Source of the DNA: Ruminococcaceae bacterium YAD3003
Lineage (GTDB): Bacteria; Bacillota; Clostridia; Saccharofermentanales; Saccharofermentanaceae
Length of the DNA stretch: 64,000 nucleotides
NCBI GenBank assembly: GCA_900107185.1
Contig: FNPA01000012.1
Location: 1-64,000, forward strand
Direction: 5' to 3'
In this document: piece after piece, positions 17,914 through 40,127 of the stretch
Position numbering within the stretch: the first letter of the stretch is position 1
Layout: the number at the start of each line of letters is the position of its first letter
Notes under the pieces: generated by a model
Database searches by the model: none
The model's input: only the letters and a program-made list of their open reading frames with translations
Told to the model about the DNA's origin: nothing
Position numbers and translations under genes: made by a program

Positions 17914-17944
17914 TGTAACAAAAAGCGATTCGTTGTATTATAAT
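17914..17944 (+). promoter_or_regulatory. Promoter of the ATP-grasp gene
   Basis: TATAAT at 17939-17944, with a TGTAAC at 17914-17919 as a weak -35 (19 bases apart). The predicted first transcribed base, about seven bases after the -10 box, falls at about 17951, the first base of the ATG chosen for the gene. Confidence 0.45.
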
Positions 17945-17950
17945 GCTCCT

Positions 17951-18946
17951 ATGCCGAATATAAAGTATCTGATAAGACGCGTTACGCGTATGGACTATAA
18001 GGCAATGAATGCCAAGATCAAGGATATCCACCAGAAGAGCGGGAAGTCCCGTGTGTGGATATTTTTCGATATGGTCCACTGCGGAAGAAAGTTCGGAGCA
18101 GGATATATGGATTACTGGCTCTATGAGATGTATAACCTCACAGATGCCGAGAGAGATACATATATCACCAGAGGACGTAACTACGATCTCGTAAAGAGAT
18201 ATAACGATCCGGCTTATACTGATCTCATTGACAATAAGATTGAGTTTAATAAGCGTTTCGGTGAGTTTTTGGGCCGTAAGTGGATCGAGATAAGAAAAGA
18301 TAACAAGCAGGAAGTAATTGATTTTATTAATGATCACGATTTCCTCATGGCGAAGGCTGATCTGGGTTCATGCGGTAAGACCGTAGAGAAGGTAGACTGT
18401 AAGGCTGAACCTGCCGAAGCTATTTATGAGAGGCTCGTTAACATGGAACGCCCTCATTTCTTCGAAGAGATGATCGTTCAGCATCCTGCGGTAAGTGCTA
18501 TCTATCCTTATTCTATTAATACAGTAAGACTCGTTACCATCCAGCGTGACGGCAAGGTCCATGTTGCCAGTGCCTGCTGCAGATTCGGCAATTACGGCCA
18601 CAGCGTAGATAATTTCAATAATGGCGGAATGACTGCTCCTGTTGATGAGAAGACAGGTGAGATTACCGACTTCCCGATTGATAAGACTAAGGTCCTTTAT
18701 GAGAAGCATCCTATGACAGGTGCCGTATTTAAGGGCTTTGTTTTCCCTATGTGGGACCAGGTTCTGGAGATGTGCACAAAGGCTGCAATGGTTGTTCCTC
18801 AGGTTGGTTTCATCGGATGGGACGTGTGCATTACACCTGATGGACCCGTTATCGTTGAAGGTAATGACTATCCGGGTCACGACCTTTATCAGCTCCCTGA
18901 ACATACCCACGATAAGAAGGGTATCTGGCCCAAGTATCAGTTTTGA
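17951..18946 (+). CDS. ATP-grasp protein (sugar-transfer-associated, ATPgrasp_ST-like)
   Basis: 331 residues. The sequence resembles the ATP-grasp family found with glycosyltransferase and polysaccharide genes: FFDMVHCGRKFGAGYMDYW, ITRGRNYDLVKRYNDP, FLGRKWIE, NTVRLVTIQRDGKVHVASAC, GFIGWDVCITPDGPVIVEGN and the last conserved ND. Members of this family are thought to join an amino or carboxyl compound to a sugar; the true reaction is unproven. A TTG at 17933 opens the frame earlier but would lie inside the -10 box. ATG 17951 is preferred because it keeps the N-terminal IKYLIRRVTRMDYK helix; ATG 17990 is a shorter alternative. Neither has a ribosome site, so a leaderless message is possible. It is monocistronic here. 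Confidence 0.82.
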   Translation: MPNIKYLIRRVTRMDYKAMNAKIKDIHQKSGKSRVWIFFDMVHCGRKFGAGYMDYWLYEMYNLTDAERDTYITRGRNYDLVKRYNDPAYTDLIDNKIEFNKRFGEFLGRKWIEIRKDNKQEVIDFINDHDFLMAKADLGSCGKTVEKVDCKAEPAEAIYERLVNMERPHFFEEMIVQHPAVSAIYPYSINTVRLVTIQRDGKVHVASACCRFGNYGHSVDNFNNGGMTAPVDEKTGEITDFPIDKTKVLYEKHPMTGAVFKGFVFPMWDQVLEMCTKAAMVVPQVGFIGWDVCITPDGPVIVEGNDYPGHDLYQLPEHTHDKKGIWPKYQF

Positions 18947-25248: not shown

Positions 25249-28200
25249 ATGAGGTACAAATTAAAGAAAATGCTCGGTATGCTGATCGCATGCTCGATAT
25301 TGATCTCATGTTGGTCTGTTTATGTTGGACATGCGACTGCAGATGCAGGTCAGGATGCATATACTTTTAATTATGCATATGACTGTCAAAGATATCCTGC
25401 TTATCCATCTAAAGGTGGAACATTACATGCTAGTGGTTTTACTACCCCGCTTGATTCAAGTGGATCGCATGCTGAACCGATTTATGGAAATTGGAAACTT
25501 GTATATTTAGGATTGTATTCCGAAGTCAAAAACAGTATTTCAAGTTCAGAAATTGGATCCGTTGTATCTGATGCTGCAAATGCATATGGCATGTCATCAA
25601 ATGATATTCCTGTATATGAGTTGAAACGAGACAATACACATTATGCCTACGGTGTTCTGGTTACACTTGCTGACAATAAAAATATTGCTGCGTTTATCGG
25701 TGATACATGGGGTGGCGGAGCAGGTTACGTTCTCTCTAAATATGAATTGAATGGTTCTTATGATTTTAATGTTAATAAAGACTTAAAAGACATCACAAAG
25801 CGTGCAACTGCTGATCCTGCTGTTGTTGCTGTAGATGACATTATTGAAGATCTTCCTGCACCTAAATCATTAACAAGAGATGATGCTCCTGCAATTGCAG
25901 TAGCACGTGAGAAGTATGACGCACTTGACGATGGATTAAAGAGCCAGGTCGATAGTGAGAATGTCAGCAAACTCGTGGCTGCAGAGTCAGCAATCGATAC
26001 AATTCTGAACAAAGAGGTAGATGATGTTGAAGTAGAAATCAACAAACTGCCTACAGCAGATCAGATTAAAGCTGCTGATGAAGAATCACTTAATGATATC
26101 AAAGGACAGATTGAATCTGTTCGTGGTGCTTATGAAAATCTTTATGATAGCCATAAGGGTAAAGTTGAGAACTACAATAACCTTTTAAATGCAGAAGTAG
26201 CATACGTTGAAAACCTTATTGATAAGCTTCCGGCTCCGACTGATATCACATTAGATGATATAGATGATATTGAAGCAGCCAGATCAGCTTATAATGCTTT
26301 ACCCGCTGAAGGTGAGCAGGATTTGGTTAAAAACGATAATAGACTTGAGGCAGCCGAGACAGCAGTTGTTTCAAAAGTTGATCTTATGATTGCTTCTTTG
26401 CCTGGAACGGGCAATATTACAACTGCTGATGCTGAAGAAATCAAAGCGGCGCGTGATGCTTATAATTCTCTGCCTGACAGATTAAAGGACTCTGTTACAA
26501 AACTTACTAAGTTGGAAGCTGCAGAAGAAGCTTTGAGCAATGCGGAAATAGCAGAAGTAGAAGACCTTATCGCAGCTCTTCCTGCTCTTAATGAAATAAA
26601 GCCCTCTGATGCTGAAGCAATTAATGCAGCAAGAGAAGCATATGAAGCGCTTAGCGCTGCACAGAAGGGAAACGTTGAAAACTACGATGATCTCGTAAAT
26701 GCAGAAAAAGCTTTGATAGATGCTGAAATAGCAGCAGTTGAAGATTTGATTGCTTCCTTACCGGTAAGCGGCTCAATTACTGTAGATGATGCAGATGATA
26801 TTAAAGCGGCACGTGATGCTTATGAAGCGTTAACTGATGCTCAGAAAGCTGAAGTAAGCAACCTGGATGCTCTCGTAAATGCAGAAGTAGAATTGGTTGA
26901 GGATATCATTGATAATCTCCCTGAATCTGATGCAATTACATCATCTGATGCAGAAGCTATTGAAGCAGCACTTAATGCATTTGAAAAGCTGACTGATGAT
27001 CAGAAAGCGGATGTTGGAAACATTTTAGATCTCGTGAAGGCTGAGGCGGCACTTGTTGATGGTTTTATCAATGATCTTCCTGCTCCTGATTCTGTAAAGC
27101 TTTCTGATATTGATGCAATCAAAGGTGCAAGAGATGCCTATGACAGTCTGGATGATGATCAGAAGGATTTAATTAAAGGATTAGACGATCTCGAAGCAGC
27201 TGAGAATGCATTAGTTGCAATAGTTGAAGATATGATCGATGATTTGCTTCCTGTAAATAACATTTCTATAAAGGATGCAGATAGAATTGAAGAAGCACGC
27301 GAAGCGTACAATTCTCTTCCTGACAGCTTAAAGGGTTCTGTTACTAACCTGGAAGATCTCGAAGATGCAGAATATGCATTGGTAAAGGCTGAAGCTAATG
27401 TAGTTGAATTATTGATCGACGCAATTCCTTCTGGAGATGAAATTACAGTAGCTGATGCAGATGCTATTAAGGCTGCCAGAGATGCATATAATGCATTGGA
27501 CGATGCGAAAAAGCCTTTAGTTTCTAATATTGACGAGCTCGCATCTGCAGAAAATGCTTTAGTTGATGCGATTGAAGACAGTATTGATAATTTCCCTGGT
27601 TCTGATGAGATTTCTCTTTCTGATTCAGAAGCAATCAAAGCAACACGCGCAGCTTATGAAGCTTTGCCTAAAGCACTGAAAGATTCTTTCGATGAGGATT
27701 ATTTAGATGATCTCGAAGCAGCAGAAGCAGCTTTGTCTAAAGTTGAAATAGCTGATGTTGAAGATAAGATCGATAATCTGCCTGTAGCTGATAAGATCTC
27801 AACATCTGATGCTGATGCGATCAAAGAAGCACGTGAAGCATATGACGCTCTTACTGATGAACAGAAGTCGTCTGTTGATAACCTTGATGAACTCGTTGCA
27901 GCTGAAGAAGCTTTAGACGTCGCTTTGGAGGAAGAAGCAGTTAAGGTAGCACAGATGATCAAGAGACTTCCGGATGCTGATACTATCACTAAGGAAGACT
28001 ATGAATCTGTATATGAAGTAAAGGCTATTTTCGATAAATTAACAGATTCCCAGAAGTCAGCAATCGGTGCGGAACTGGCTGAAAAACTCGAAGAAGACGT
28101 TCGTGCAGTTGAAATCGAATGGTTCGCATATGGTTATACGCAGGCTAATCTGTTACTTGAAAACTTCGGAGAACTGATGACTGCAGAAACCAAGGCTGCT

Positions 28201-28743
28201 CTCGAGCGTTCCGTTAAGGCAGCAAAGGATGTAATGGCACTTGGTGATAAGGCTTCTGTAGAAGAAATCGTCAATGCAACTGATAAGCTTTTGGCTTCCG
28301 CAATGTATGCTGATGAAGAACTCAGCAAGATCTACAAAGTAATTGCCGGTGACGGTTTTGATATCACAGAAGGAGCTCTTTCTGAAATGGTTATCAAGAT
28401 CAAGCAGTGCGGTTTGGAAGATAATGCTTTTGAGAACTTCATTAGTGCCGGAAAGAAAGTATACGTTGATGGCATCATTGTTGATTCTAAGAATTACACT
28501 TACGAAAAGGGCAGCTTGATCCTGACACTCCTGCCTGATTTCCTTAAGACATTGTCTGTAGGCGATCATACCCTTACTGTCAGATTTAGTGACACTGAAA
28601 GTATTAATGTTACATTTACTGTCAGCGAAGCTGCATATTTAGCTTCTACCGGTGAGCCGGTCAGCTATATCGGTTTGACAGGTGCGATCTTAGTACTTCT
28701 TGCCGGCGGTACATTCTATCTTAGGAAGCGTATCTTTGCATAA
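25249..28743 (+). CDS. Large repeat-containing cell-surface protein with LASTG sorting-like signal
   Basis: 1164 residues. Residues 1 to about 32 are a signal peptide (basic start, hydrophobic core, likely cut after HATA; the LISC inside could also be read as a lipobox). Residues 33 to about 190 are a unique domain rich in Tyr and Gly. About 13 tandem units of 50-62 residues follow (25822-28120). Each unit has the pattern LP...ITxxDAxxIxxARxAYxAL...QKxxVxNLxxLxxAE, predicted to be short helical bundles. A non-repeat domain follows. The end has LASTGEP at about residue 1131, a hydrophobic helix and RKRIFA, which is the layout of a sortase substrate with Ala in place of Pro. It is probably a cell-wall stalk or adhesin; ligand unknown. 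No sortase gene is nearby. Confidence 0.88.
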   Translation: MRYKLKKMLGMLIACSILISCWSVYVGHATADAGQDAYTFNYAYDCQRYPAYPSKGGTLHASGFTTPLDSSGSHAEPIYGNWKLVYLGLYSEVKNSISSSEIGSVVSDAANAYGMSSNDIPVYELKRDNTHYAYGVLVTLADNKNIAAFIGDTWGGGAGYVLSKYELNGSYDFNVNKDLKDITKRATADPAVVAVDDIIEDLPAPKSLTRDDAPAIAVAREKYDALDDGLKSQVDSENVSKLVAAESAIDTILNKEVDDVEVEINKLPTADQIKAADEESLNDIKGQIESVRGAYENLYDSHKGKVENYNNLLNAEVAYVENLIDKLPAPTDITLDDIDDIEAARSAYNALPAEGEQDLVKNDNRLEAAETAVVSKVDLMIASLPGTGNITTADAEEIKAARDAYNSLPDRLKDSVTKLTKLEAAEEALSNAEIAEVEDLIAALPALNEIKPSDAEAINAAREAYEALSAAQKGNVENYDDLVNAEKALIDAEIAAVEDLIASLPVSGSITVDDADDIKAARDAYEALTDAQKAEVSNLDALVNAEVELVEDIIDNLPESDAITSSDAEAIEAALNAFEKLTDDQKADVGNILDLVKAEAALVDGFINDLPAPDSVKLSDIDAIKGARDAYDSLDDDQKDLIKGLDDLEAAENALVAIVEDMIDDLLPVNNISIKDADRIEEAREAYNSLPDSLKGSVTNLEDLEDAEYALVKAEANVVELLIDAIPSGDEITVADADAIKAARDAYNALDDAKKPLVSNIDELASAENALVDAIEDSIDNFPGSDEISLSDSEAIKATRAAYEALPKALKDSFDEDYLDDLEAAEAALSKVEIADVEDKIDNLPVADKISTSDADAIKEAREAYDALTDEQKSSVDNLDELVAAEEALDVALEEEAVKVAQMIKRLPDADTITKEDYESVYEVKAIFDKLTDSQKSAIGAELAEKLEEDVRAVEIEWFAYGYTQANLLLENFGELMTAETKAALERSVKAAKDVMALGDKASVEEIVNATDKLLASAMYADEELSKIYKVIAGDGFDITEGALSEMVIKIKQCGLEDNAFENFISAGKKVYVDGIIVDSKNYTYEKGSLILTLLPDFLKTLSVGDHTLTVRFSDTESINVTFTVSEAAYLASTGEPVSYIGLTGAILVLLAGGTFYLRKRIFA
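25822..28120 (+). repeat. About 13 tandem protein-coding repeats of 150-190 bp
   Basis: The repeats are clear at protein level and diverged at DNA level. Conserved positions per unit are a leading LP, an IT or IS with a following Asp-Ala, an ARxAY block, an LTxxQK block and a closing AExAL. Units 4, 5, 6, 11 and 12 are closest to the consensus; units 1, 2 and 13 are the most diverged, as expected at the ends of an array that grew from the middle. Confidence 0.85.
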
Positions 28744-28889: not shown

Positions 28890-30245
28890 ATGGGTAAATA
28901 TTTCGGAACAGACGGCTTCAGAGGCGAAGCCAATAAAGCTCTCACTGCACAAAAGGCTTTCCAGGTAGGAAGATATATCGGCTGGTATTACGGCCAGAAG
29001 CACGATGACAAGAGAGCAAAGATCATCATCGGTAAGGATACAAGAAGAAGTTCATATATGCTTGAGGCTGCTCTTACAGCAGGTATTACATCCTCAGGTT
29101 CAGATGCTTATCTTTTACATGTAACTACTACACCGTCAGTCTCATACTGCTGCAGAACAGACGGATTTGACTGCGGAATCATGATCTCAGCGTCCCACAA
29201 TCCTTTCTACGATAACGGAATCAAGATCATGCGTGCCAACGGTCAGAAGATTGAGGCAGAGATCGAAGAGAAGATCGAAGCTTATATTGATGGAGAGATC
29301 GAAGAGATTCCTTTGGCTGAGCGTGAAGCCATCGGTAACGTAATTGACTATGCTTCAGGACGTAACCGTTATATCGGATATCTCATGACAATTCCTACCA
29401 GAGCATTCAACGGAATGAAGGTAGGTCTGGACTGCGCTAACGGAGCTTCATGGAATATCGCGAGATCTGTTTTCGAGGCGTTGGGAGCAAAGGTTTATAT
29501 CATCAACAACCAGCCTGACGGACTTAACATTAATACAAACTGCGGTTCAACACATATCGATACATTGAAGAAGTTTGTTTTGGACAACGGCCTCAACGTA
29601 GGTTTCGCTTATGACGGCGATGCTGACAGATGTCTTGCAGTAGACGAACTCGGCAACGAGGTCAATGGCGACCAGATCATGTTCCTCTGCGGTAAGTATC
29701 TCAAGGAGAGCGGCAAGCTCGACGGAAATACGATCGTTACAACGATCATGAGCAATATGGGTCTTTACAAGGCTTGTGAAGCTATCGGTATCCGTACTGA
29801 GAAGACAAACGTCGGTGATAAGTACGTAGCTGAGAACATGATGGCTAACGGATTTGTATTGGGCGGCGAGCAGTCAGGACACATCATTTTCGCTAAGTAT
29901 GCTACAACGGGTGACGGTATCCTCACTTCTCTTATGGTTCTTATGACCATGCTCGAGAAGAAGCTGCCTCTCTCAATGCTCGCAGGCGAGATGAAGATGT
30001 ATCCTCAGTGCCTCAAGAACGTTGTTGTTAAGGATAAGGAAGAAGCACAGAAGAATCCGGCAGTCCTTAAGGGCGTTGAAGAAGTTAATAAGGCTCTCGC
30101 AGGCGACGGAAGAATGCTGCTCCGTGCATCAGGTACTGAACCTAAGATCCGTGTAATGGTTGAAGCAAAGACCGACGAGATCTGTGAAGAGTACGTTGAT
30201 AAGCTTATTGCTGTAATTAAGGAACAAGGCTTAACAGCAGATTAA
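28890..30245 (+). CDS. glmM: Phosphoglucosamine mutase
   Basis: 451 residues, the usual GlmM length. It converts glucosamine-6-phosphate to glucosamine-1-phosphate for UDP-GlcNAc and peptidoglycan. The N terminus MGKYFGTDGFRG is diagnostic. The phosphoserine is Ser102 in MISASHNP, the metal loop is AYDGDADRCL, the sugar loop is GGEQSGHI, and the phosphate site is LRASGTEPKIRVM. An AAAGGCGG ribosome site precedes the ATG. A possible promoter lies upstream (TTGATA 28835-28840, TAAAAT 28856-28861, 15 bases apart). nagB follows after a hairpin, so amino-sugar synthesis and breakdown are adjacent. Confidence 0.96.
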   Translation: MGKYFGTDGFRGEANKALTAQKAFQVGRYIGWYYGQKHDDKRAKIIIGKDTRRSSYMLEAALTAGITSSGSDAYLLHVTTTPSVSYCCRTDGFDCGIMISASHNPFYDNGIKIMRANGQKIEAEIEEKIEAYIDGEIEEIPLAEREAIGNVIDYASGRNRYIGYLMTIPTRAFNGMKVGLDCANGASWNIARSVFEALGAKVYIINNQPDGLNINTNCGSTHIDTLKKFVLDNGLNVGFAYDGDADRCLAVDELGNEVNGDQIMFLCGKYLKESGKLDGNTIVTTIMSNMGLYKACEAIGIRTEKTNVGDKYVAENMMANGFVLGGEQSGHIIFAKYATTGDGILTSLMVLMTMLEKKLPLSMLAGEMKMYPQCLKNVVVKDKEEAQKNPAVLKGVEEVNKALAGDGRMLLRASGTEPKIRVMVEAKTDEICEEYVDKLIAVIKEQGLTAD

Positions 30246-30259
30246 ACAAGGATATAGCG

Positions 30260-30290
30260 GCTCTGTGCTGATTTGGCGCAGAGCTGTTTT
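30260..30290 (+). terminator. Intrinsic terminator between glmM and nagB
   Basis: GCTCTGTGC (30260-30268) pairs with GCGCAGAGC (30276-30284) with one G:U pair, 7-base loop, then TG and four T. The short T run may allow read-through into nagB. Confidence 0.7.
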
Positions 30291-30318
30291 ATATACAAAA
30301 CTAATTGGGAGATTGAAT

Positions 30319-31068
30319 ATGAGAGTAATCAGAAAGAGCAACTATGAAGAAGCTTCAATGGCATGTGCTGAGCTTATCGCTTCACAGATAAGACTTAAGC
30401 CCGACTGCAAGATCGGTCTTGCAACAGGTTCTACACCTATTGGAACTTATAAGGACCTTGTTGATATGTATAAGGCAGGCAGCCTTGATTTTTCCAAGGT
30501 TACATCTGCTAACTTAGACGAGTACAGAGGCTTGGGCGGCGATCACGATCAGTCTTACAGATATTTCATGAATACAAATCTGTTCGATCACGTAAATATC
30601 GACAAGAGCAAGACATATGTACCTGACGGACTTGAGGCAGATGCTGTTAAGGCATGCACAGATTATGATAAGATCCTTGAGTCTTTGGGTCACCTTGATA
30701 TCCAGCTGCTCGGAATCGGCGGCGACGGACACATCGGTTTCAATGAGCCTGCTGATGCTTTCTGCGTAAATACACAGTGTATTGACCTCGAAGAGCAGAC
30801 AATCCAGGATAATGCCAGATTGTTCTTCGGCGGAGACCTCGCTGCTGTTCCTACACAGGCTTATACAATGGGTATCGGCTACATCATGAAGTCTACAACA
30901 GTTATCCTTATGGCTACAGGCGCAGGTAAGAGAGGCATCGTTGAGAAGGCTTTCTGCGGTCCTGTTACACCCAGGGTACCGGCTTCAATCCTCCAGCTCC
31001 ACCCGAATGTTGTTGTTATTGGTGACGAGGCTGCTATTTCTGATGCCGTAGTTGCTGCTGCAAAGTAA
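30319..31068 (+). CDS. nagB: Glucosamine-6-phosphate deaminase
   Basis: 249 residues from the ATG at 30319 (MRVIRKSNYEEAS), 8 bases after GGGAG; an earlier in-frame start at 30265 would lie in the glmM terminator. The enzyme turns glucosamine-6-phosphate into fructose-6-phosphate and ammonia. Motifs: LATGSTPIGTY near residue 38, NLDEYRGL, and GIGGDGHIGFNEP with the catalytic His. It opposes the amino-sugar synthesis that GlmM serves. A strong terminator follows. No nagA or GlcNAc transporter is adjacent. Confidence 0.95.
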   Translation: MRVIRKSNYEEASMACAELIASQIRLKPDCKIGLATGSTPIGTYKDLVDMYKAGSLDFSKVTSANLDEYRGLGGDHDQSYRYFMNTNLFDHVNIDKSKTYVPDGLEADAVKACTDYDKILESLGHLDIQLLGIGGDGHIGFNEPADAFCVNTQCIDLEEQTIQDNARLFFGGDLAAVPTQAYTMGIGYIMKSTTVILMATGAGKRGIVEKAFCGPVTPRVPASILQLHPNVVVIGDEAAISDAVVAAAK

Positions 31069-31101: not shown

Positions 31102-31137
31102 AGAGGTTGTTGCAAACAAAAGCAACAGCCTCTTTTT
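31102..31137 (+). terminator. Intrinsic terminator of nagB
   Basis: AGAGGTTGTTGC (31102-31113) pairs with GCAACAGCCTCT (31122-31133) with one mismatch, 8-base loop, then T run. Confidence 0.9.
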
Positions 31138-31174: not shown

Positions 31175-32671
31175 ATGAGAGATAGAATTGAGAAGTTGAT
31201 AGATAAGACTATTAGTGTGAGCCTTCCCTGGATAGTTTCAAAAGACGGGGTAGTTCAGTTTGTTGATCCGTTGGATAAGAAAGAGATCTCTGCTCACTAT
31301 GGCGCCTCTCATATGGCAGTTTCTCTAATAATCTACGGCAGCCTTAAACATGAAGATTCCCTTGTCAAACAGGGTGAAGACCTTTTGTTTAGTGTTCTGG
31401 ACCGTTGGAATGAGAATAAGGAGCTTCCTGATTTTCATAATGACTTCAACAATTTTGCACTTTGCGTTCTGGATCATTTTACGGATAAATACCACGAGAG
31501 AATAAAAGAGACAGTTCTTAGGACTAAGGATACGTTCTTTGACACCATTAACTGGTTGCCGATGCGTTGGTTTGTAAACCTCACGAGATATAAATGGACC
31601 GGAGATGTCTCATATAAAGATATTTGTCAAAAGTGCATGCAGACAATAAGCCAGGCTACTTACAGTGACGGCTTTATCGAAGATATGCTCCCGTTAGGAA
31701 GGAGTTTCAGCCTTCAGTATGATGTTGCAACGGTTGCGTTTATGCAGTATCTGAGAGTTATGGGAGAAGACATCGATCTATCTGTTCAAACCGGCGCTCT
31801 TCTTAATGCTGTATATCCTGATGGTGACATCAATTATTTTGGCAGAGGTACTAATCAGATTTTTGCATGGGGATTGTGGATTTATCTCCTGGCGAGCAGC
31901 GGTCAGAATGAATTGGACAGAGCTCTGGGCTATATTGAAAAGAGATTGCCTGAAATGCTCAAAAACAACAATATTATGCTAAATGATTATCCCGGTGAAG
32001 AGAAATTCATGTGGTGGGACTATCATTACTCTTCGGTATACACGGCGCATCTGCTTTTCTGGCTTATTATGGCTCTGAAAGATTTCGATAAATGCAGCAT
32101 CGAACCAAGGCTGATATCTGATGGCAGCAGCGGAGTCTGCATATCACGTAATGACAACGCGTTTGTTGTTACTTTCGATGGCAGAACTGAATATTTAGCA
32201 GAAGCAGGTCCTTCTGTTGTTGCTCTGTGGACTAAACAGTCAGGTCAGGTAATTAAGGGCGAGTTTGGTCCCTGGTATGGATTGTTCGGAAATAAATATG
32301 CTCAACCTGATGTTGTTATGAAAAACTATATAGGGCTGATCAAAACAGAATCTGAACAGTCGAACCGCAGGAGAAACAGAGTCTTTGCTAAGCTGTTTGG
32401 GGAGAATAAAAAATGCGTAGAAGGAATGAACCGTCCTGTGTTTATTGCTCCGTCAGTTGATATTTCTGAAAAGGTTAGACTTACTTATCAGGTAAATGGC
32501 ACGCCGTTATTACTTAATGTTCCTTCTTTTGGCGGAAGCATTACTGTCAGTGCAGATGGTGAGCAGGTAGTTATGAGCGATACAATGAAAATCAGAAATC
32601 AATATGATTGGTTAACAATCAAACAAAAACTTATTGATTCAGCTAATGTAATTGAAGTAGAAGTGTTATGA
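31175..32671 (+). CDS. Cytosolic alpha/alpha-toroid carbohydrate-active-like protein
   Basis: 498 residues without signal peptide. The first 310 residues are helix-rich with repeated aromatic pairs (FHNDFNNFAL, WLPMRWFVNLTRYKWTG, DGFIEDMLPLGRSF, FMWWDYHYSSVYTAHLLFW), as in alpha/alpha-barrel polysaccharide lyases and hydrolases. The last 180 residues look beta-rich (ISDGSSGVCISR, FDGRTEYLAEAGPSVVALW), like the sandwich domain of heparinase-type lyases. The exact family and activity were not recognised. It overlaps the following glycosyltransferase by four bases (ATGA), so it belongs to the glycan cluster. It may trim or process a cytosolic glycan or its precursor. Ribosome site weak (GAGG 14 bases upstream). 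Confidence 0.65.
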   Translation: MRDRIEKLIDKTISVSLPWIVSKDGVVQFVDPLDKKEISAHYGASHMAVSLIIYGSLKHEDSLVKQGEDLLFSVLDRWNENKELPDFHNDFNNFALCVLDHFTDKYHERIKETVLRTKDTFFDTINWLPMRWFVNLTRYKWTGDVSYKDICQKCMQTISQATYSDGFIEDMLPLGRSFSLQYDVATVAFMQYLRVMGEDIDLSVQTGALLNAVYPDGDINYFGRGTNQIFAWGLWIYLLASSGQNELDRALGYIEKRLPEMLKNNNIMLNDYPGEEKFMWWDYHYSSVYTAHLLFWLIMALKDFDKCSIEPRLISDGSSGVCISRNDNAFVVTFDGRTEYLAEAGPSVVALWTKQSGQVIKGEFGPWYGLFGNKYAQPDVVMKNYIGLIKTESEQSNRRRNRVFAKLFGENKKCVEGMNRPVFIAPSVDISEKVRLTYQVNGTPLLLNVPSFGGSITVSADGEQVVMSDTMKIRNQYDWLTIKQKLIDSANVIEVEVL

Positions 32672-33651
32672 CGGAAAACAGAGTTAGTGTATTAGTTACA
32701 TTCTACAATCAGGAGAAATATGTTGATACTGCTCTGCAGAGTGTGTTCTCACAGAAGACTGATTTTGGAGTCAAGGTAATTGTCGGCGATGACGGCTCTT
32801 CTGACCGTACCTGCGAGATAGTTAACCAGTGGATCGAACGTTATCCTGATAATATTGAGCTCCACATAATGGAGCGTGGTGAAGGAAAACAGATTCCCGG
32901 ATTCAGAGCGTCGAGAAACAGATTAAACCTTCTCCAATATGTTGATACCGATTATTTCAATTTCCTGGATGGTGATGATTATTTTACCTGTGATACAAAA
33001 CTGCAGAGACAGGTAGAGATACTTGATTTAGCAGATAACAGTGACTGCATTGCATGCGGACATAACGTTTACAGATCATATAGTGACGGAAGAAACATAC
33101 CTGCAACAGATCCCAACCTCAAAGAAGGTAAGGTGTCACCTGAGTATTTCTGGTCGAAAGCATATATTCATACTGATTCGCTGATGTTCAGGAGTTCGTT
33201 TATTCCTGAGATCAAAGTCAAATTATTGGAAAACAGTTTTAATGATACTATGATCACCCTGTCAGCTGTCCAGCACGGAATGATCTACTATATCCCTGAA
33301 ATATGGGCTATTTATCTGCAGACGGCAGACGGCATTTGGACATCCGGTAATGCAGTAGTAAATCATGTCAGAAGCATTATTTTCTACGATCTGGCAACGA
33401 AGGTAAATCCTAAACTAAAGATGCATACCATATGCCGTTTTGGCTATGTCTGGAAGGGATTATTCAAACTGCGTAAGAGCATCGATCCTTCCTCGTTAAC
33501 AGCGTACTATAACGAAGCGAAAGATAAGGGATGTAAGAACGCAATATTGTGGATCAGTTATCCTGATCTGAACCCGTTTCAGAAGATCGGACTCTTAGTT
33601 AAGACGTTTTTCATACGTTGCTCCATTCCTGTCATAAAACACATAATCTGA
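32668..33651 (+). CDS. Family 2 glycosyltransferase
   Basis: 327 residues. The GT-A fold starts with VSVLVTFYNQEKYVDTALQSV, then IVGDDGSSDRTCEIV, and the metal-binding motif in FLDGDDYF. Sequence after about residue 240 is a C-terminal basic helical region without clear membrane helices. It adds a sugar from a nucleotide donor to a growing glycan, probably on a lipid carrier. It is coupled to the toroid gene (ATGA overlap), and a flippase gene follows 12 bases later. The sugar cannot be read from sequence. Confidence 0.9.
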   Translation: MTENRVSVLVTFYNQEKYVDTALQSVFSQKTDFGVKVIVGDDGSSDRTCEIVNQWIERYPDNIELHIMERGEGKQIPGFRASRNRLNLLQYVDTDYFNFLDGDDYFTCDTKLQRQVEILDLADNSDCIACGHNVYRSYSDGRNIPATDPNLKEGKVSPEYFWSKAYIHTDSLMFRSSFIPEIKVKLLENSFNDTMITLSAVQHGMIYYIPEIWAIYLQTADGIWTSGNAVVNHVRSIIFYDLATKVNPKLKMHTICRFGYVWKGLFKLRKSIDPSSLTAYYNEAKDKGCKNAILWISYPDLNPFQKIGLLVKTFFIRCSIPVIKHII

Positions 33652-33663
33652 TGGTGATGTTTT

Positions 33664-35166
33664 ATGAACAAGAGACGCAACCTTAAAAACGTTATATATG
33701 CATTTATCGGACAGCTCGTAGTTTTGGGACTGTCATTATTTGTGCCCCGATTTGTTTTAACCGGATATGGTTCTGATACAAATGGCCTGCTAAGTACAGT
33801 AGGGCAGATAATTGCATATATGACATTGCTCGAAGCAGGTATAGGGCAGGCGGCGCGAAATGAATTGTACCGTTATGTCAAAGATGATGTTTTCGATAAG
33901 GAAAACAGTTCATCTGTTATGACACTCTCCAGAAAGGTCTACCGGAATACAACTAAGTTATATGCTCTGCTGATTCTGGTTCTGGCGGTAGTACTTCCGT
34001 TCATCATTAAAACGGATCTGAGTTATCTTACGGTTTTCCTGGTAATCCTGATCGAGGGCGCATCGAGCGTTATCTCTTTCTATTTTGTTCAGAACTATAC
34101 GAATATTCTTATTGTCGATGGCAAGCAGTATGTTAATGCCAACATCGATCTGGTATTTAAGGGTCTGGTCTATGCGATAAAAATAGTTATGGCATTGCTC
34201 GGCGTAAATATCATATTAATGGAGATAGGATTCTTCATAGCGACTTTGGTTAAGATATTTATCTACGAGAAATATGTTAAAAAACATTATGGCTGGATCG
34301 ATTACAATGCCAATATTGAAGGAAAGAAACTAAAAGACCGTGGTCCGTACATTATCACGGAAATTGCCTGGACAGTATTCTCGTCTACTGACATGATCGT
34401 TATTTCAATGTTCTGCTCAACTAAGAAGTCGAGTGTCTACGCAATCTATTACATGGTATTTATTACGATCAACAAATTAGCAGATGCTGTATTTACCAGT
34501 CTCAAATTTAATCTTGGCCAGATATTCCATAAAGATAAAGAGCAGTATAAACAGACCCACGATGTTTTCAATTCGGTTTTCGTCGGTTCTCTGTCCGCTT
34601 TGTTGGCAGTAGCGTACTATTTGTGTATCCCGTTTATCACGTTATATACGGACGGTGTCAGCGATACGGATTATATCGATCTCGCTCTGCCAATGGGCTT
34701 TTGTCTGATCTATCTCCTGTCATGGTGCCGTATGGTATCTGAGCATCTGATCGGTGTTGCCGGATATGCGAAGAAACTCAGCAAAGTATCGATAATTGAA
34801 GTTGTTATAAATATCGTCTTATCTGTTATCTTTGTTAACCGCTTCGGAATAAGCGGTGTTCTATATGCAACTGTTATCGCGTTGCCTTTGAAGGTTATCT
34901 ACTGCAATATCTTGGCAGACAGGGTAATACTGAAACGAAGTGTCTTTACTACGGTCAAAATCCTTTTGGTTAATATAGCGCTGTTTGTAATTCTTGCTTC
35001 TTGTAAGCACTTCATAAATGTTAATATAGACAATTATCTGACCTTTTTTATTTATGGCGTATGTTTTACTTTGTGTTCGGCAGTAATATTCCTGATCGCG
35101 AATGTTCTGGCGAATAAAAATGTATTTGCCGCTTTTAAACGTATCTTTACGGGAGACAAGACATGA
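33664..35166 (+). CDS. Polysaccharide flippase (Wzx/MATE-like membrane protein)
   Basis: 500 residues with about 12-14 hydrophobic helices across the whole length. The start [21 protein letters not shown] and the [20 protein letters not shown] segment are typical of the polysaccharide-biosynthesis flippase family. It would move lipid-linked glycan units across the membrane. Its stop overlaps the nucleotide-sugar dehydrogenase start by four bases (ATGA). No separate polymerase (Wzy-like) gene was found in the cluster, so either the unit is transferred as a single oligosaccharide or polymerisation occurs elsewhere. Confidence 0.87.
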
Positions 35167-36407
35167 GAGAAATTTCAAATAAGAATATTTCGATTGTTGG
35201 TATCGGATATGTTGGTCTGGCATTAGCGGTTTTACTTGCACGTGATAATAAAGTGACGGCAATTGATATTGCGCAGGAAAAAGTCGATAAGATAAACGAA
35301 CTTATCCCATTCACACACGACGCTCTCATAAATAAATATTTCGTCGAAGCGAAAAACGGAGCCAGAAGTTTTAATATTAAAGGCACTACAGACATAAGTG
35401 AGTGTGCAGGTTCTGATTTCATAATCATATCCACACCGACAAATTACGATCCTGAACAGAACTATTTCGATTGTTCTGCAGTCGAAAGTGTACTGCGTCA
35501 GATCAACGATATTTCGGGAGGATCAGATAAGAAGCCTGTTATCGTCATTAAGTCTACGGTTCCAATCGGATTTACTGAGAATATCCGCAGAGAACTCAAC
35601 ATGGATAACATTATTCATTCACCTGAGTTTTTAAGGGAAACGTCTGCCTTATATGACTGTCTCTATCCTGACAGGATTATTGTCGGTTGTAATGAAGAGA
35701 CATCTGAATCAGCCCGTGATTTCGCTGAGCTCATGAAAAATGCCGCCGAAAAGGAAATTATTGACTCTCTGATAATGTCGTTCTCGGAGTCTGAGGCGGC
35801 CAAACTGTTTGCAAATACATTTCTGGCATTGAGAGTCTCTTTTTTCAATGAACTGGATACGTTTGCCGAATCGAAAGGTCTGAATTCAGCTAATATCATT
35901 AATGGCATCTGCAAGGATTCCAGAATCGGAGATTTCTATAATAATCCGTCATTTGGTTACGGCGGTTACTGTCTGCCCAAAGACACAAAACAGCTCCTTG
36001 CCAATTACGATAAGGTTCCTGAACAGCTCATCAGTGCTATTGTTTGCAGTAACTATACGAGGAAGTCTTTTATAGCAGAGCAGGTGATTGAGAGGGCAAC
36101 GGACATTGGCGGTGATTCCGGTGAGATAGTCATAGGGGTATTCAGACTGACCATGAAGACTGATTCTGATAATTTCCGTAATTCATCAGTCCTTGATGTA
36201 ATGGAAATGATCAGAACAAAGGGTTTTAACATGATCATTTATGAACCTGTCCTTCCGGAAGGATCTGATTTCTGCGGATCGAAAGTAGTAAATGACATAG
36301 AAGTGTTCAAAAAACAGAGCACACTCATTATTGCGAATAGATTTGATCCGGTGTTAGATGATGTTAAGGATAAAGTATATTCCAGAGATTTATTTAAAAG
36401 GGAATAA
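35163..36407 (+). CDS. UDP-glucose 6-dehydrogenase family protein
   Basis: 414 residues, the usual length. It oxidises the C6 of a nucleotide sugar to the uronate, with two NAD per turn. NAD-binding [14 protein letters not shown] at the N terminus, then [28 protein letters not shown] and YPDRIIVG. The catalytic Cys is in [14 protein letters not shown]-glucuronate is the most likely product. That fits the cluster, which would build an acidic glycan, and also the lyase-like fold of the first gene, since lyases act on uronic acids. Coupled to the flippase gene by a four-base overlap. Confidence 0.92.
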
Positions 36408-36425
36408 GACAGGATTGAAAAACTT

Positions 36426-37316
36426 ATGGGTATGAAGAAAAGCATCAAAAAATGCCTGTTTAAGATATCTTCCGGATATACGGATCTGCTTTACAGACGT
36501 CCTTATTTGGATAAGGAGGCAAAGCTCAGGCGCAGTTTAGAAGGCGAGCTGCTCCATTTGGACCTTGTAATTACGGAATGCTGCTCACTTAAATGCCGCG
36601 ACTGCTCGAATCTGATGCAGTACTATCAGAAACCTGAGAACCTGACATCTGATGAAGTTATAAATGAACTTAAGAAGCTGTTTTCATGTTTGCGTGTGCG
36701 TGAACTTAAGGTGCTCGGAGGAGAACCTTTCGTAAATCAGAAGGTCCTGTCTGATGTTTTGAGATTCCTGACGGGTGATTATTCCGGATATGTTGATTCT
36801 ATAAATATCATTACAAATGGTACGATCCTTCCTTCTGAAGACTGTCTGGAGGCTATGATCAGCAATCCAAAGACCAAAGTGTCTTTTAGCAATTATGGTG
36901 AGCTGTCCAACAGGCAGGATGAATTCGTTGAACTGTGCAAGAAGAACAATATTGATTATCAGGTTACTGATGATTCTTTCTATTGGCTCGATTTCGGGCG
37001 CCCGATAGAATATAACGAATCTGAAGAATTTGTCCGCAGGCAGTATAAAAACTGCTATAACAGGAAAAACTGTAATACTCTGTACAGAGGCAGGATTTAT
37101 GCATGCCCCAGACAGGCGCATGGCATACGTCTGGTCCTTATCCCTGACAGTAAAGATGAATTTGTGGACCTGTTTGACCCCGGATATACTGATAAAGATG
37201 ATTTAAGACGGGCCATTATTGGTCTGGTCAGACGGAAAGAGCCGGTCTCTGCCTGCAGGTACTGCTTAAACTGTAAATATATCCATGTTAAGAGGGGAAT
37301 CCAGGAAAAACGCTGA
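36426..37316 (+). CDS. Radical SAM protein with extra C-terminal cysteines (SPASM-like)
   Basis: 296 residues. The cluster motif CxxxCxxC is formed by Cys53, Cys57 and Cys60 (TECCSLKCRDC), followed by LGGEPF, the SAM-binding GGE motif. The C-terminal third holds several more Cys (CYNRKNCN, YACPRQ, CRYCLNCKY), as in SPASM/twitch domains that bind auxiliary iron-sulfur clusters. Such enzymes modify peptides or, in some cases, sugars and alcohols. No precursor peptide gene was seen nearby, and the gene is the last of the glycan cluster, 18 bases after the dehydrogenase. It may therefore act on a glycan or on a glycan-linked peptide. The substrate is unknown. Confidence 0.85.
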   Translation: MGMKKSIKKCLFKISSGYTDLLYRRPYLDKEAKLRRSLEGELLHLDLVITECCSLKCRDCSNLMQYYQKPENLTSDEVINELKKLFSCLRVRELKVLGGEPFVNQKVLSDVLRFLTGDYSGYVDSINIITNGTILPSEDCLEAMISNPKTKVSFSNYGELSNRQDEFVELCKKNNIDYQVTDDSFYWLDFGRPIEYNESEEFVRRQYKNCYNRKNCNTLYRGRIYACPRQAHGIRLVLIPDSKDEFVDLFDPGYTDKDDLRRAIIGLVRRKEPVSACRYCLNCKYIHVKRGIQEKR

Positions 37317-37362
37317 TTTTAAGGCTTCCTGATATTTGAGATAATCAGTTTAGTTTAAACAG

Positions 37363-37391
37363 TTGCATGAACTTCCTTTAATGTTTATAAT
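37363..37391 (+). promoter_or_regulatory. Promoter of the 2-oxoacid oxidoreductase operon
   Basis: TTGCAT (37363-37368), 17 bases, TATAAT (37386-37391). The leader to the first gene contains GCGC-GTTTCT-GCGC followed by a T run, then AGGAGG. Confidence 0.7.
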
Positions 37392-37443
37392 ACTTTGAAT
37401 TATTTTAGGCGCGTTTCTGCGCGTATTTTTTAGGAGGTTTTTC

Positions 37444-37659
37444 GTGGCAAAAGGTAAATTAACTTTTAACGAGAATCTGTGCAAGGGCTGCGGTCTCTGC
37501 GTTGCAGCTTGCCCTAAGAAAATCCTCGAACTTGACAAGACAAGGCTGAATAGCAAGGGTTATCATCCCGCAACATGCGTAAACCCCGATGAGTGTATCG
37601 GTTGTGCTTTCTGCGCTACGCAGTGCCCGGATGTCGTAATCACTGTTGAGCGTTTCTGA
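37444..37659 (+). CDS. 2-oxoacid:ferredoxin oxidoreductase, ferredoxin-like delta subunit
   Basis: 71 residues, GTG start 6 bases after AGGAGG. Two 4Fe-4S motifs: Cys13, 16, 19 and 23, and Cys51, 54, 57 and 61. It passes electrons from the thiamine site of the beta subunit to free ferredoxin. First gene of a four-gene unit in the order delta, alpha, beta, gamma, which is the order of VorDBAC/KorDABC clusters. Confidence 0.93.
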   Translation: MAKGKLTFNENLCKGCGLCVAACPKKILELDKTRLNSKGYHPATCVNPDECIGCAFCATQCPDVVITVERF

Positions 37660-37672
37660 TCGGGAGGTTTTT

Positions 37673-38767
37673 ATGGCACAGAAAAGAGTTTTGATGAAAG
37701 GCAATGAGGTCATTGCCGAGGCAGCGATCAGAGCAGGCTGCCGTAACTATTTCGGATACCCGATCACACCTCAGACAGAAGTCATGCACTACATGGCTAA
37801 GAAGATGGTTCAGGTCGGCGGTAACTTTGTACAGGCAGAGTCTGAGGTTGCAGCCATTAACATGGTTTATGGTGCAGCAGCAGCCGGCTTCAGAGTAATG
37901 ACATCTTCTTCCTCTCCGGGAATTTCCCTCAAGCAGGAAGGTATTTCATACATTGCAGGTGCTGAGCTTCCTGCAGTCGTAGTTAATATTGTTAGAGCAG
38001 GCCCGGGTCTGGGCGGTATTCAGCCTGCACAGGGTGACTACTTCCAGGCTACAAAGGGCGGCGGACACGGTGATTACAGAAACATCGTTATCGCACCTGC
38101 TTCTGTTCAGGAGCTTTATGAGCTCGTAGTTGAAGCTTTCAATCTCGCTGATAAGTACAGAATGACCTGCATGATCATAGGCGACGGTACTTTGGGCCAG
38201 ATGATGGAGCCTGTTGCTTTCCGTGATGAAGAACCCGTCGAGACAATCGAGAAGCCTTGGGCTGCATGCGGAAGAAAGGGTGATTCTTTCCATCACACAG
38301 TAACATCTATCTATATTGATCCGGATGTTTTGGAGAAGAAGAACCTCGAGCTCCAGGAAAAGTACAAGATTGTTGAAGCTAACGAAGTACGTTATGAATC
38401 AATCTGCATGGATGATGATCCGGAGATCGTAATCACAGCATTCTCAACATGCTCAAGAATCTCCAGAAACGTTATCCGTCAGGCTCGTGAGCTTGGTATC
38501 AAGGTTGGTATGATCAGACCTATCACACTCTGGCCTTTCCCTTACAAGGCAATCGCTGAAGCAGCTGATATGCCCTCTGTAAAGGCCTTCCTCGACGTTG
38601 AGCTCAACGCTGGTCAGATGATCGAAGACGTAAGACTTGGCGCTAATGGTAAGAAGCCCGTTTATTTCCACGGAAGACTCGGAGGAAATCTCCCGATGCA
38701 GAAGGAAATCCTCGATAAGATCGTTGCGATCCACGAGGGAAAGATCACAGAAGGAGGTAATTTCTGA
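37673..38767 (+). CDS. vorB: 2-oxoacid:ferredoxin oxidoreductase alpha subunit (VorB-like)
   Basis: 364 residues from the ATG at 37673 behind GGGAGG; a start at 37646 would overlap the ferredoxin gene. The start KGNEVIAEAAIRAGCRNYFGYPITPQTE, read in two parts, is typical of the branched-chain (2-oxoisovalerate) subfamily. ESEVAAINMVYGAAAAG and TSSSSPGISLKQEG complete the TPP-pyrimidine domain. It oxidatively decarboxylates branched 2-oxoacids to acyl-CoA, or runs in reverse. Together with ilvE, this could link branched-chain amino acids to acyl-CoA. Distinguishing Vor from Kor by sequence alone is uncertain. Confidence 0.88.
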   Translation: MAQKRVLMKGNEVIAEAAIRAGCRNYFGYPITPQTEVMHYMAKKMVQVGGNFVQAESEVAAINMVYGAAAAGFRVMTSSSSPGISLKQEGISYIAGAELPAVVVNIVRAGPGLGGIQPAQGDYFQATKGGGHGDYRNIVIAPASVQELYELVVEAFNLADKYRMTCMIIGDGTLGQMMEPVAFRDEEPVETIEKPWAACGRKGDSFHHTVTSIYIDPDVLEKKNLELQEKYKIVEANEVRYESICMDDDPEIVITAFSTCSRISRNVIRQARELGIKVGMIRPITLWPFPYKAIAEAADMPSVKAFLDVELNAGQMIEDVRLGANGKKPVYFHGRLGGNLPMQKEILDKIVAIHEGKITEGGNF

Positions 38768-39591
38768 TGGCTGTAGTTTTCGAACCCACAAAAGGCCTTA
38801 CAGATAAGCCTTTCCATTATTGCCCCGGCTGCTGCCACGGCATTATCCACAGACTCGTTGCTGAGACTCTTGTTGACAACGATGCTCTCGAGACAGCAGT
38901 AGGTGTTGCATCCGTTGGATGTACATACAATTCATATGAATACATTGCTTGTGACATGGTTCAGGCTGCTCACGGTAGAGCACCTGCAGTTGCTACAGGT
39001 ATCAAGAGAAACCTTAAAGACAGCTTCGTCTTCACATATCAGGGAGACGGCGACCTCGCTTCCATCGGTACAGCTGAGATCGTTCACGCTGCTGCAAGAA
39101 GTGAGAACATCACGGTAATCTTCGTTAACAACGCAGTTTACGGTATGACTTCAGGTCAGATGGCACCTACAACACTTGTTGGTCAGGTTACAACAACATC
39201 TCCTTGGGGACGTGATCCTTCTTACCAGGGTTATCCTATCAATGTTTCTGAGTTCTTATCTAATCTCGCAGGTGCTGCTTATGTTGAGCGTGTTTGCGTT
39301 ACAGATTATAAGAACATCCAGAACGCTAAGAGAGCTATCCAGAAGGCTTTCAATGTTCAGAAGAACAAGCTCGGTTTCTCTCTCGTAGAAGTTCTTTCAA
39401 CTTGTCCTACTAACTGGGGTAAGGAGCCTCTCGCAGCTATGGATTGGCTCAAAGAGAACATGGAGAAGCAGTATCCGTTAGGATGCTACAAGGGTGCTGA
39501 TATCACTTTCGATGCAGACGGTAAGTATGTTTCAGGTGCTATCCCTGCAACTTCTAACAACTGTGTTAATGTTGGGGAGGTGAAGAAATGA
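38767..39591 (+). CDS. 2-oxoacid:ferredoxin oxidoreductase beta subunit (TPP-binding)
   Basis: 274 residues. Its start shares one base with the alpha stop (TGATG). The N terminus has YCPGCCHGIIHRL, which supplies cluster-ligand and TPP contacts. The TPP-pyrophosphate motif starts at GDGDLASIGTAEI and is followed by the NNAVYGMTSGQMAPTT stretch, typical of this superfamily. It carries the decarboxylation chemistry together with alpha. Confidence 0.93.
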   Translation: MAVVFEPTKGLTDKPFHYCPGCCHGIIHRLVAETLVDNDALETAVGVASVGCTYNSYEYIACDMVQAAHGRAPAVATGIKRNLKDSFVFTYQGDGDLASIGTAEIVHAAARSENITVIFVNNAVYGMTSGQMAPTTLVGQVTTTSPWGRDPSYQGYPINVSEFLSNLAGAAYVERVCVTDYKNIQNAKRAIQKAFNVQKNKLGFSLVEVLSTCPTNWGKEPLAAMDWLKENMEKQYPLGCYKGADITFDADGKYVSGAIPATSNNCVNVGEVKK

Positions 39592-40127
39592 TTGATTTCT
39601 CTGTAATTTTTGCCGGATTCGGTGGTCAGGGAATCCTCTCCGCAGGCAAGATGGCAGCAGAAGCTGCTCTTTATGAAGGTAAGGAAGTTTCTTGGTTCCC
39701 GTCTTACGGACCTGAGATGCGTGGCGGTACAGCTAACTGCTCCGTAGTATTCTCAGATGAGCCTATCGGATCTCCCGTAGTTAACGATGCAGACGTTGTT
39801 ATCTGCCTCAACCAGCCTTCAATGGAGAAGTTCGAGAAGCAGTTGAAGCCCGGTGCTCTCATGATTCTCGACTCTTCACTCATTAAGACAAGACCTACAA
39901 GAACTGACATCAAGGTTATCGCTATGGAAGCTTCTGATATCGCTTCCGAGCTCGGTAAGATGATGTTCGCTCCTATCACAATGCTCGGCTGTATGGCTAC
40001 AGCTACAGGTTGCTTCACAAGAGATTCTTTCGAGAAGTCACTCTATGAGATCCTTCCCGAGAGAAAGCACAACCTCATTCCTATCAATATGGAAGCATTT
40101 GACAGAGGCGCAGCTTTCGCGAAGTAA
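39588..40127 (+). CDS. 2-oxoacid:ferredoxin oxidoreductase gamma subunit
   Basis: 179 residues, starting within the beta stop (ATGA overlap). The N terminus FAGFGGQGILSAGKMAAEAA and the FPSYGPEMRGGTANCSVV stretch are the CoA-binding gamma-domain signatures. With it the enzyme has all four subunits. A strong terminator follows the stop codon, which closes the operon. Confidence 0.94.
   Translation: MIDFSVIFAGFGGQGILSAGKMAAEAALYEGKEVSWFPSYGPEMRGGTANCSVVFSDEPIGSPVVNDADVVICLNQPSMEKFEKQLKPGALMILDSSLIKTRPTRTDIKVIAMEASDIASELGKMMFAPITMLGCMATATGCFTRDSFEKSLYEILPERKHNLIPINMEAFDRGAAFAK

Follow-up and report, generated by a model that had tools for sequence, protein, structure and literature searches.

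Can a small group of glycan genes that includes a radical S-adenosylmethionine (SAM) enzyme be read as one pathway, and what would this enzyme do there? The question is raised by positions 31175–37316 (+ strand) of a stretch of 64,000 nucleotides from Ruminococcaceae bacterium YAD3003 (contig FNPA01000012.1, positions 1 to 64,000), which we will call the window. The genome has 2.67 Mb in 30 contigs; several of its close relatives are metagenome-assembled genomes from sheep gut or horse feces. An initial annotation had described here five genes, for a toroid protein, a family 2 glycosyltransferase (GT2), a flippase, a UDP-sugar dehydrogenase and a radical SAM enzyme, as a single pathway for a small acidic lipid-linked glycan or a glycan joined to a peptide. 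What we find is a real and well-bounded surface-glycan island, placed at the junction of the nagB stop codon and a ferredoxin operon. It is a mosaic and not one conserved pathway: a cassette of toroid, GT2 and flippase genes, a gene for UDP-glucose 6-dehydrogenase (UGD) and a radical SAM gene. The reading which we moderately favour is that of a variable, exchangeable surface-polysaccharide island, whose radical SAM enzyme, similar to SpeY in its predicted fold, would oxidise a sugar hydroxyl.

A glycan island between nagB and a ferredoxin operon

The genes and signals of the island and its flanks are the following.

28890..30245, + strand: glmM, phosphoglucosamine mutase with Pfam PGM_PMM domains; left flank kept in relatives, outside the island
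30265..31068, + strand: nagB-like glucosamine-6-phosphate isomerase (PF01182, 6e-22); left boundary of the island
31102..31133, + strand: terminator-like hairpin in the interval between nagB and the island, a 12-pair stem followed by a T run
31175..32671, + strand: toroid protein, 498 aa; predicted helical toroid and beta domain, orphan family, signal peptide absent
32668..33651, + strand: GT2 glycosyltransferase of the toroid cassette, 327 aa (PF00535, 2e-18)
33664..35166, + strand: flippase-like membrane protein of the toroid cassette, 500 aa; distant likeness to a Polysacc_synt protein that is itself below cut-off
35163..36407, + strand: UGD, 414 aa (PF03721/PF00984/PF03720)
36426..37316, + strand: SpeY-like twitch radical SAM enzyme, 296 aa (Radical_SAM PF04055, 1.9e-7)
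37409..37424, + strand: weak terminator-like hairpin of 6 pairs, 3' of the island
37444..40127, + strand: ferredoxin (first gene, Fer4 domains) and three further genes; right flank, order kept in relatives, outside the island

The five open reading frames (ORFs) are intact, at the positions where they had been placed initially, and are wedged between the nagB stop and the ferredoxin/oxidoreductase operon. The three genes after ferredoxin presumably code for a 2-oxoacid:ferredoxin oxidoreductase. The packing is as tight as first described: the toroid and GT2 genes overlap by 4 bases, as do the flippase and UGD genes, and the remaining two gaps have 12 and 18 bases.

The edges of the block are sharp. 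We have compared 400 bases over the left edge and 360 over the right one with 14 loci: nine empty sites, three with a radical SAM gene and two with other islands. The left flank has a match in 13 of them, which ends at 31068, the last base of the nagB stop codon, in 10 loci; it ends 1–3 bases further on in two and 13 bases short in one. The right flank matches in all 14 loci, with starts at 37352–37436, 36–120 bases past the stop of the radical SAM gene (37316).

The same junction was surveyed in 18 genomes of the genus which have the oxidoreductase gene with no radical SAM gene adjoining it. The oxidoreductase gene is found in 72 of the 85 genus genomes at E 1e-100; other genomes, such as G046, were left out, and one of those surveyed, G068, has its radical SAM genes on another contig. 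Nine of the 18 sites are empty, with nagB and then the ferredoxin operon (L123, L125, L127, L128, L129, L130, L132, L134, L138). Three have an island of glycosyltransferase relatives without a radical SAM gene (L133, L136, L137). The other sites show a two-gene insert (L126, L131), a single gene (L140) or another insert (L124); finally, L139 is without glmM and nagB and L135 is too short. In these maps the mechanical choice of ORFs sometimes shows an antisense ORF over the ferredoxin or oxidoreductase gene; the presence of the latter was confirmed. The sharp edges, together with the empty and alternative sites, therefore mark the five genes as the content of an exchangeable island with a fixed chromosomal position. 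This comparison gives a fixed point for collecting and comparing such islands throughout the genus. Surface glycans are quick to vary, and recognition by phages and hosts depends on them.

A mosaic of glycan genes

The toroid gene is found in only 4 of the 85 genus genomes, and all four keep the GT2 and flippase genes adjoining it, in the same order. In the three genomes other than our own the partner GT2 is 54–61% identical and the flippase 60–66% identical to those of the window; the three next-best GT2 relatives shown have 23–29%. One of these trios (G024) extends a gene run in which an initiating sugar transferase (PF02397) is encoded along with a Wzy_C protein; two further genes there we take, from their sequence type, to be GT2-like and GDP-fucose-synthase-like. 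The other parts of the island have separate distributions. Toroid and strong radical SAM gene are found together in the window genome only, one of the four toroid genomes. Close UGD relatives are present in 27 of the 85 genomes; 4 of the 26 genomes with a strong radical SAM gene have one, against 8 expected by chance, and in the three besides the window the two genes sit on different contigs. A one-sided Fisher test gives p 0.99 for enrichment and p 0.026 for depletion. These values are a guide only: the genomes are related and many are incomplete, close UGD was taken as E below 1e-90, and the count leaves out G032, where two short pieces of a UGD gene lie at the ends of contigs. The idea of a conserved five-gene pathway, for which the set was sought in the genus, is thus rejected, since its toroid, UGD and radical SAM genes are largely separate. 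A link between uronate and the radical SAM gene is rejected by the lack of enrichment as well.

The toroid protein has no match in Pfam, NCBIfam or the PDB sequences. Outside the genus it was found neither among 115 family genomes and 391 class genomes nor in viral contigs and plasmids; only the same four genus genomes have it. By eye it has no signal peptide. Its open frame has 503 codons for a protein of 498 aa, therefore no upstream signal was missed and the initial statement on this point stands. The AlphaFold model, in which a beta domain comes after a helical toroid, is weak (pLDDT 60, four sequences). The sole Foldseek match under 1e-3 is the chondroitinase 9o3q (E 2.1e-4, TM 0.34–0.38), which has the same order of domains and is aligned over both; it is to be read with the low confidence of the model. 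A second structure aligner has AGE epimerases, GH76 and GH88 together at the top, aligned over the toroid portion with Z 13.7–16.9, values which helical models can reach through their common arrangement. The window protein differs from all these enzymes in having neither a sequence match nor a signal peptide, and its family occurs in genomes without a UGD match. One of its stretches, with glycine and arginine, may resemble polysaccharide lyase motifs. A role as uronate lyase or epimerase tied to the UGD of the island is unlikely, because of the genomes which have the toroid and no UGD match. The fact that it always sits among glycan genes hints at a step of glycan editing or quality control in the cytoplasm.

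These data bear on the idea that the island is one specific pathway for an acidic glycan, in which the toroid protein (like a uronate lyase or C5-epimerase), UGD and the radical SAM enzyme would work on the same glucuronate chain. The overlapping gene order, the location in the island of the only UGD of the genome and the chondroitinase match all agree with it. On the other hand, the three other toroid genomes have neither a UGD match nor a strong radical SAM match (two of them are 78 and 84% complete, G024 97%), the UGD and radical SAM genes rarely occur in one genome and, the window excepted, then on different contigs, and a poor toroid model places several enzyme classes together at the top. 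We consider such a pathway improbable.

The GT2 match to PF00535 is above cut-off. The UGD, already recognized as a UDP-sugar dehydrogenase, has its three Pfam domains and matches solved UDP-glucose dehydrogenases with a best E of 1.1e-122 (3phl and 1dli are under 1e-119); it has 428 of 757 bits with the equivalog NF011631, whose cut-off is not reached. The description of the five genes as a glycan gene block is borne out. No polymerase is seen among the five genes, as had been noted. The short chain deduced from its absence does not follow: two matches to initiating transferases (PF02397) are found in the genome, on contig 11 only, in a large locus, and a relative of the Wzy_C protein (35%) on contig 17 only, together with GT2 matches, LicD, a phosphoenolpyruvate (PEP) mutase and a thiamine pyrophosphate (TPP) enzyme. 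The island can thus draw on enzymes of these loci for initiation and perhaps for polymerisation, so that a block without polymerase is no proof of a short glycan. Compared with Wzx/Wzy loci, it likewise has a GT2, a flippase-like protein and an NDP-sugar enzyme, and the cassette of G024 lies near its transferase and Wzy_C genes; it differs by the absence of initiating transferase and polymerase and by the additional toroid and radical SAM genes.

The island might also be decaying or silent, a set of leftover glycan genes without a joint product. Its mosaic origin would be compatible with this, as would the location of the initiating enzymes outside it and the absence of a promoter-like match in our scan of the + strand between 30900 and 31950. 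However, none of the five frames is interrupted, all lie close together, and the toroid and radical SAM proteins retain the residues conserved in their relatives, so that decay has a small probability in our opinion.

The radical SAM protein and its surroundings

A strong radical SAM gene (E at most 6.9e-73) is found in 27 places of 26 of the 85 genus genomes, window included. At E 1e-3 there are matches in 41 genomes; the additional 15 are weak and partial. Many close loci (L045–L071) apparently duplicate others and were not counted twice. All 27 places adjoin a glycosyltransferase or a pyruvyl transferase, or UGD in the case of the window. The objection that this gene is a random neighbour of glycan genes therefore fails. 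In the fetched stretches the oxidoreductase is downstream in 18 places, 14 of which also have glmM upstream; four of the nine places without it are on contigs under 12 kb. In the eight closest relatives (59–66%) the gene just upstream codes in every case for a polysaccharide pyruvyl transferase (PF04230, a family scanned once), in the spot occupied by UGD in the window. The other 18 belong to a branch of their own (SH-aLRT 97), with a GT2-family gene directly downstream in 17 and then a methyltransferase in 16.

Two observations on these loci may be added. G068 has two radical SAM copies in the same island, one from each branch (L019:5952–10789). In L018, L019, L020 and L024 a module recurs, whole or in part, which consists of an AMP-binding enzyme, a small carrier-like protein, an NAD-epimerase-like protein and an F420-dehydrogenase/acyltransferase-like protein. 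It adjoins the genes for the radical SAM enzyme and the pyruvyl transferase and perhaps adds an acyl or aminoacyl group.

More distant relatives of the protein occur in groups as far apart as Clostridia, Pelagibacter, Nitrospira and Methanoperedens. A model built from the GT2 family of the genus detects a GT2 gene no more than 5 kb away in 19 of 27 distant loci. As a scale, the window genome has 20 Glycos_transf_2 matches, an average of 0.07 in a 10-kb stretch. Among 100 of the 101 proteins neighbouring these distant genes there are 19 with Glycos_transf_2 and 13 with Radical_SAM; epimerases, DXD glycosyltransferases, LicD, FkbM, Wzy_C and Caps_synth are also present. The phage collection has no match to the protein, and PHROGs gives generic radical SAM families only. 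Plasmids give four records, three from Brachyspira and one from Nonomuraea (35.5%, in an unannotated stretch).

The radical SAM motif CX3CX2C is formed by C53, C57 and C60. It is invariant in the 20 genus proteins aligned (of 27) and in a wide alignment of 22 rows, the window and 21 of the 27 distant proteins, including members from Treponema, Scalindua, Nitrospira, Methanoperedens, Elusimicrobia, Pelagibacteraceae and Patescibacteria. The additional cysteines which had attracted attention at first are indeed conserved: C210, C216, C227, C277 and C280 are invariant in the genus, and all of them except C216 in the wide alignment. The best PDB sequence match is SpeY (1.4e-7 and 6.8e-8; structures 7wzv, 7wzx and 7x0b, called 'Twitch Radical SAM Dehydrogenase' in their titles), with whose cysteines C210, C227, C277 and C280 are aligned. 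These four probably bind a single auxiliary cluster.

The predicted fold agrees with this match. The AlphaFold model (pLDDT 80) is closest to the SpeY chains (Z 21.0–21.2, rmsd 2.7–2.8 Å over 242–243 residues), followed by BtrN (Z 13.1); DesII (Z 10.7) and BlsE (Z 10.5) are also among the matches. SpeY, which we take to belong to the spectinomycin pathway, also has CX3CX2C, four auxiliary cysteines and a similar length. It differs by its 20–21% identity, by the C216 invariant in the genus of the window protein and by the N-terminal Rossmann-like stretch of most of the distant relatives; its context is an antibiotic pathway and not a surface glycan. BtrN, another twitch-type dehydrogenase (PDB 4m7t, complex with 2-DOIA), has an aminocyclitol substrate and shares the fold, at a greater distance than SpeY. 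The fold and the four aligned cysteines therefore point to a dehydrogenase of the sugar type with one auxiliary cluster.

A redox-neutral reaction, either epimerisation or dehydration of a sugar as in NeoN or in BlsE and DesII, perhaps with C216 as hydrogen donor, is in our view unlikely. The invariance of C216 in all 20 aligned genus sequences would suit it, BlsE and DesII are among the fold matches, and uronic acids from the neighbouring UGD would fit a BlsE-like reaction. However, SpeY leads BtrN by 8 Z units and both BlsE and DesII by more than 10, C216 varies outside the genus, and a close UGD was not found in 22 of the 26 radical SAM genomes.

Still less probable, and in fact hardly credible, is a peptide maturase, which would modify a small peptide to be glycosylated and exported later. 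Its NCBIfam likeness to several peptide maturases is weak: among the best 25 of 30 all are far below cut-off, the first being HxsC with 33.6 bits for a cut-off of 267.9. Around the 27 radical SAM genes we have examined 221 small ORFs from intergenic DNA, with those overlapping larger ORFs masked, and in the 15 largest clusters listed there is no precursor-like ORF conserved in at least three loci. The clusters that reach this number are ferredoxin, frames overlapping ferredoxin or its leader and, in three loci, a carrier-like protein. Furthermore, the auxiliary cysteines are four, as in the one-cluster SpeY, a dehydrogenase which is also the nearest fold. The absence of a precursor, already noticed in the window, extends within this search to the related loci; the glycan-peptide conjugate which had been proposed is not supported.

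For the oxidation of a sugar hydroxyl we infer the substrate, the reaction, the order of steps and the toroid function as follows. UGD would provide UDP-glucuronate. The GT2 would add a sugar to a lipid-linked chain whose first steps fall to enzymes from other loci of the genome. As SpeY and BtrN do, the radical SAM protein would use its 5'-deoxyadenosyl radical to abstract a hydrogen from the carbinol carbon of a sugar, and the second electron would pass to its single auxiliary cluster. The product would be a keto sugar, or an epimerised one after reduction. The flippase-like protein would export the chain; the toroid protein may act in the cytoplasm, where it would edit or trim this chain or intermediates of it.

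Several observations weigh against this reading. Identity with SpeY is just 20–21%, and a common fold shows no function. The radical SAM gene has moved among differing sets of neighbours, with pyruvyl transferase, with GT2 and methyltransferase, or with UGD in the window; its substrate can therefore not be read from them. In five of its 27 places the usual flanks are missing from a stretch of 20 kb, and in 8 of the 27 distant loci no GT2 was found within 5 kb. In the island itself we have seen no sugar reductase, aminotransferase or initiating transferase. The flippase was initially called with too much confidence: no flippase family of Pfam matches it directly, and the call depends on a paralogue from this genome (E 1e-12), which itself matches Polysacc_synt at 1e-5, below cut-off. 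The GC content is 0.39–0.41 in the island and 0.45–0.48 in the immediate flanks, but it is also low (0.38–0.41) at 25–28 kb, upstream of glmM, so that low GC by itself is no island marker. The signal scan has totals near chance, with 8 terminator-like matches for 4.7 expected and 18 promoter-like for 19.3; of the two flanking hairpins, both predicted, only the one of 12 pairs carries weight for this reason.

If a sugar is indeed oxidised, radical oxidation joins the tailoring toolkit of surface glycans, and keto or otherwise unusual sugars are predicted in the polymers. A wider proposal is possible, and we make it more tentatively: a widespread SpeY-like family would oxidise sugars, preparing epimerisation or branching, in the assembly of surface glycans of Bacteria and Archaea, radical tailoring would be routine, and the toroid would represent a new family of cytoplasmic glycan-editing enzymes. 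Most of the distant members would be fused to a Rossmann-like domain. Most aligned distant relatives have in fact about 100 additional N-terminal residues with a GAGxxGE-like pattern. Possibly this domain binds sugar nucleotides; its weak Pfam matches, PglD_N in 1 and Methyltransf_14 in 2 of 22, are too weak to claim it.

Related loci and other observations

Radical SAM genes beside glycosyltransferases are already in print. In a plasmid of Brachyspira hyodysenteriae they have been proposed for lipooligosaccharide synthesis or glycosylation (La et al. 2014, PMC4267127). In Campylobacter jejuni a radical SAM gene belongs to a cluster labelled methylation / capsule biosynthesis (PMC8743553). The passages of both papers on these genes show no reaction, and in the portions of the literature searched we saw no proof of a radical SAM step in the synthesis of surface glycans. 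The gene content is thus known, and the novelty first attributed to it was too strong; the oxidation of sugars in such chains would be the new chemistry. The interesting remainder is the breadth of the SpeY-like family in glycan loci.

The 36-kb plasmid of B. hyodysenteriae (NC_012226) has a radical SAM protein 26% identical to ours in a glycan neighbourhood, with a glycosyltransferase, a GDP-mannose dehydratase and rhamnan-synthesis genes. It differs from the window by its tandem radical SAM genes, and neither toroid nor UGD is annotated in the 17.4 kb viewed. Distant relatives may in general adjoin further radical SAM or SPASM genes, as in this plasmid (L121:10855–16105) and among the distant-locus neighbours.

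Three other regions of the genome deserve mention. The glycan locus of contig 17 (L116:13003–16394) has its PEP mutase fused to a cytidylyltransferase, beside LicD and the TPP enzyme, which we take to be a phosphonopyruvate decarboxylase. It suggests a polysaccharide decorated with a phosphonate of the 2-aminoethylphosphonate type. In the window, the low-GC stretch just upstream of glmM codes for a protein of 1164 aa with no convincing Pfam family (25249–28743); at this site some relatives carry Wzy_C and GT2 genes. Finally, a sugar-transfer-associated ATP-grasp protein (PF14397, 2.6e-48) is found at 17933–18946, apart from the glycan island.

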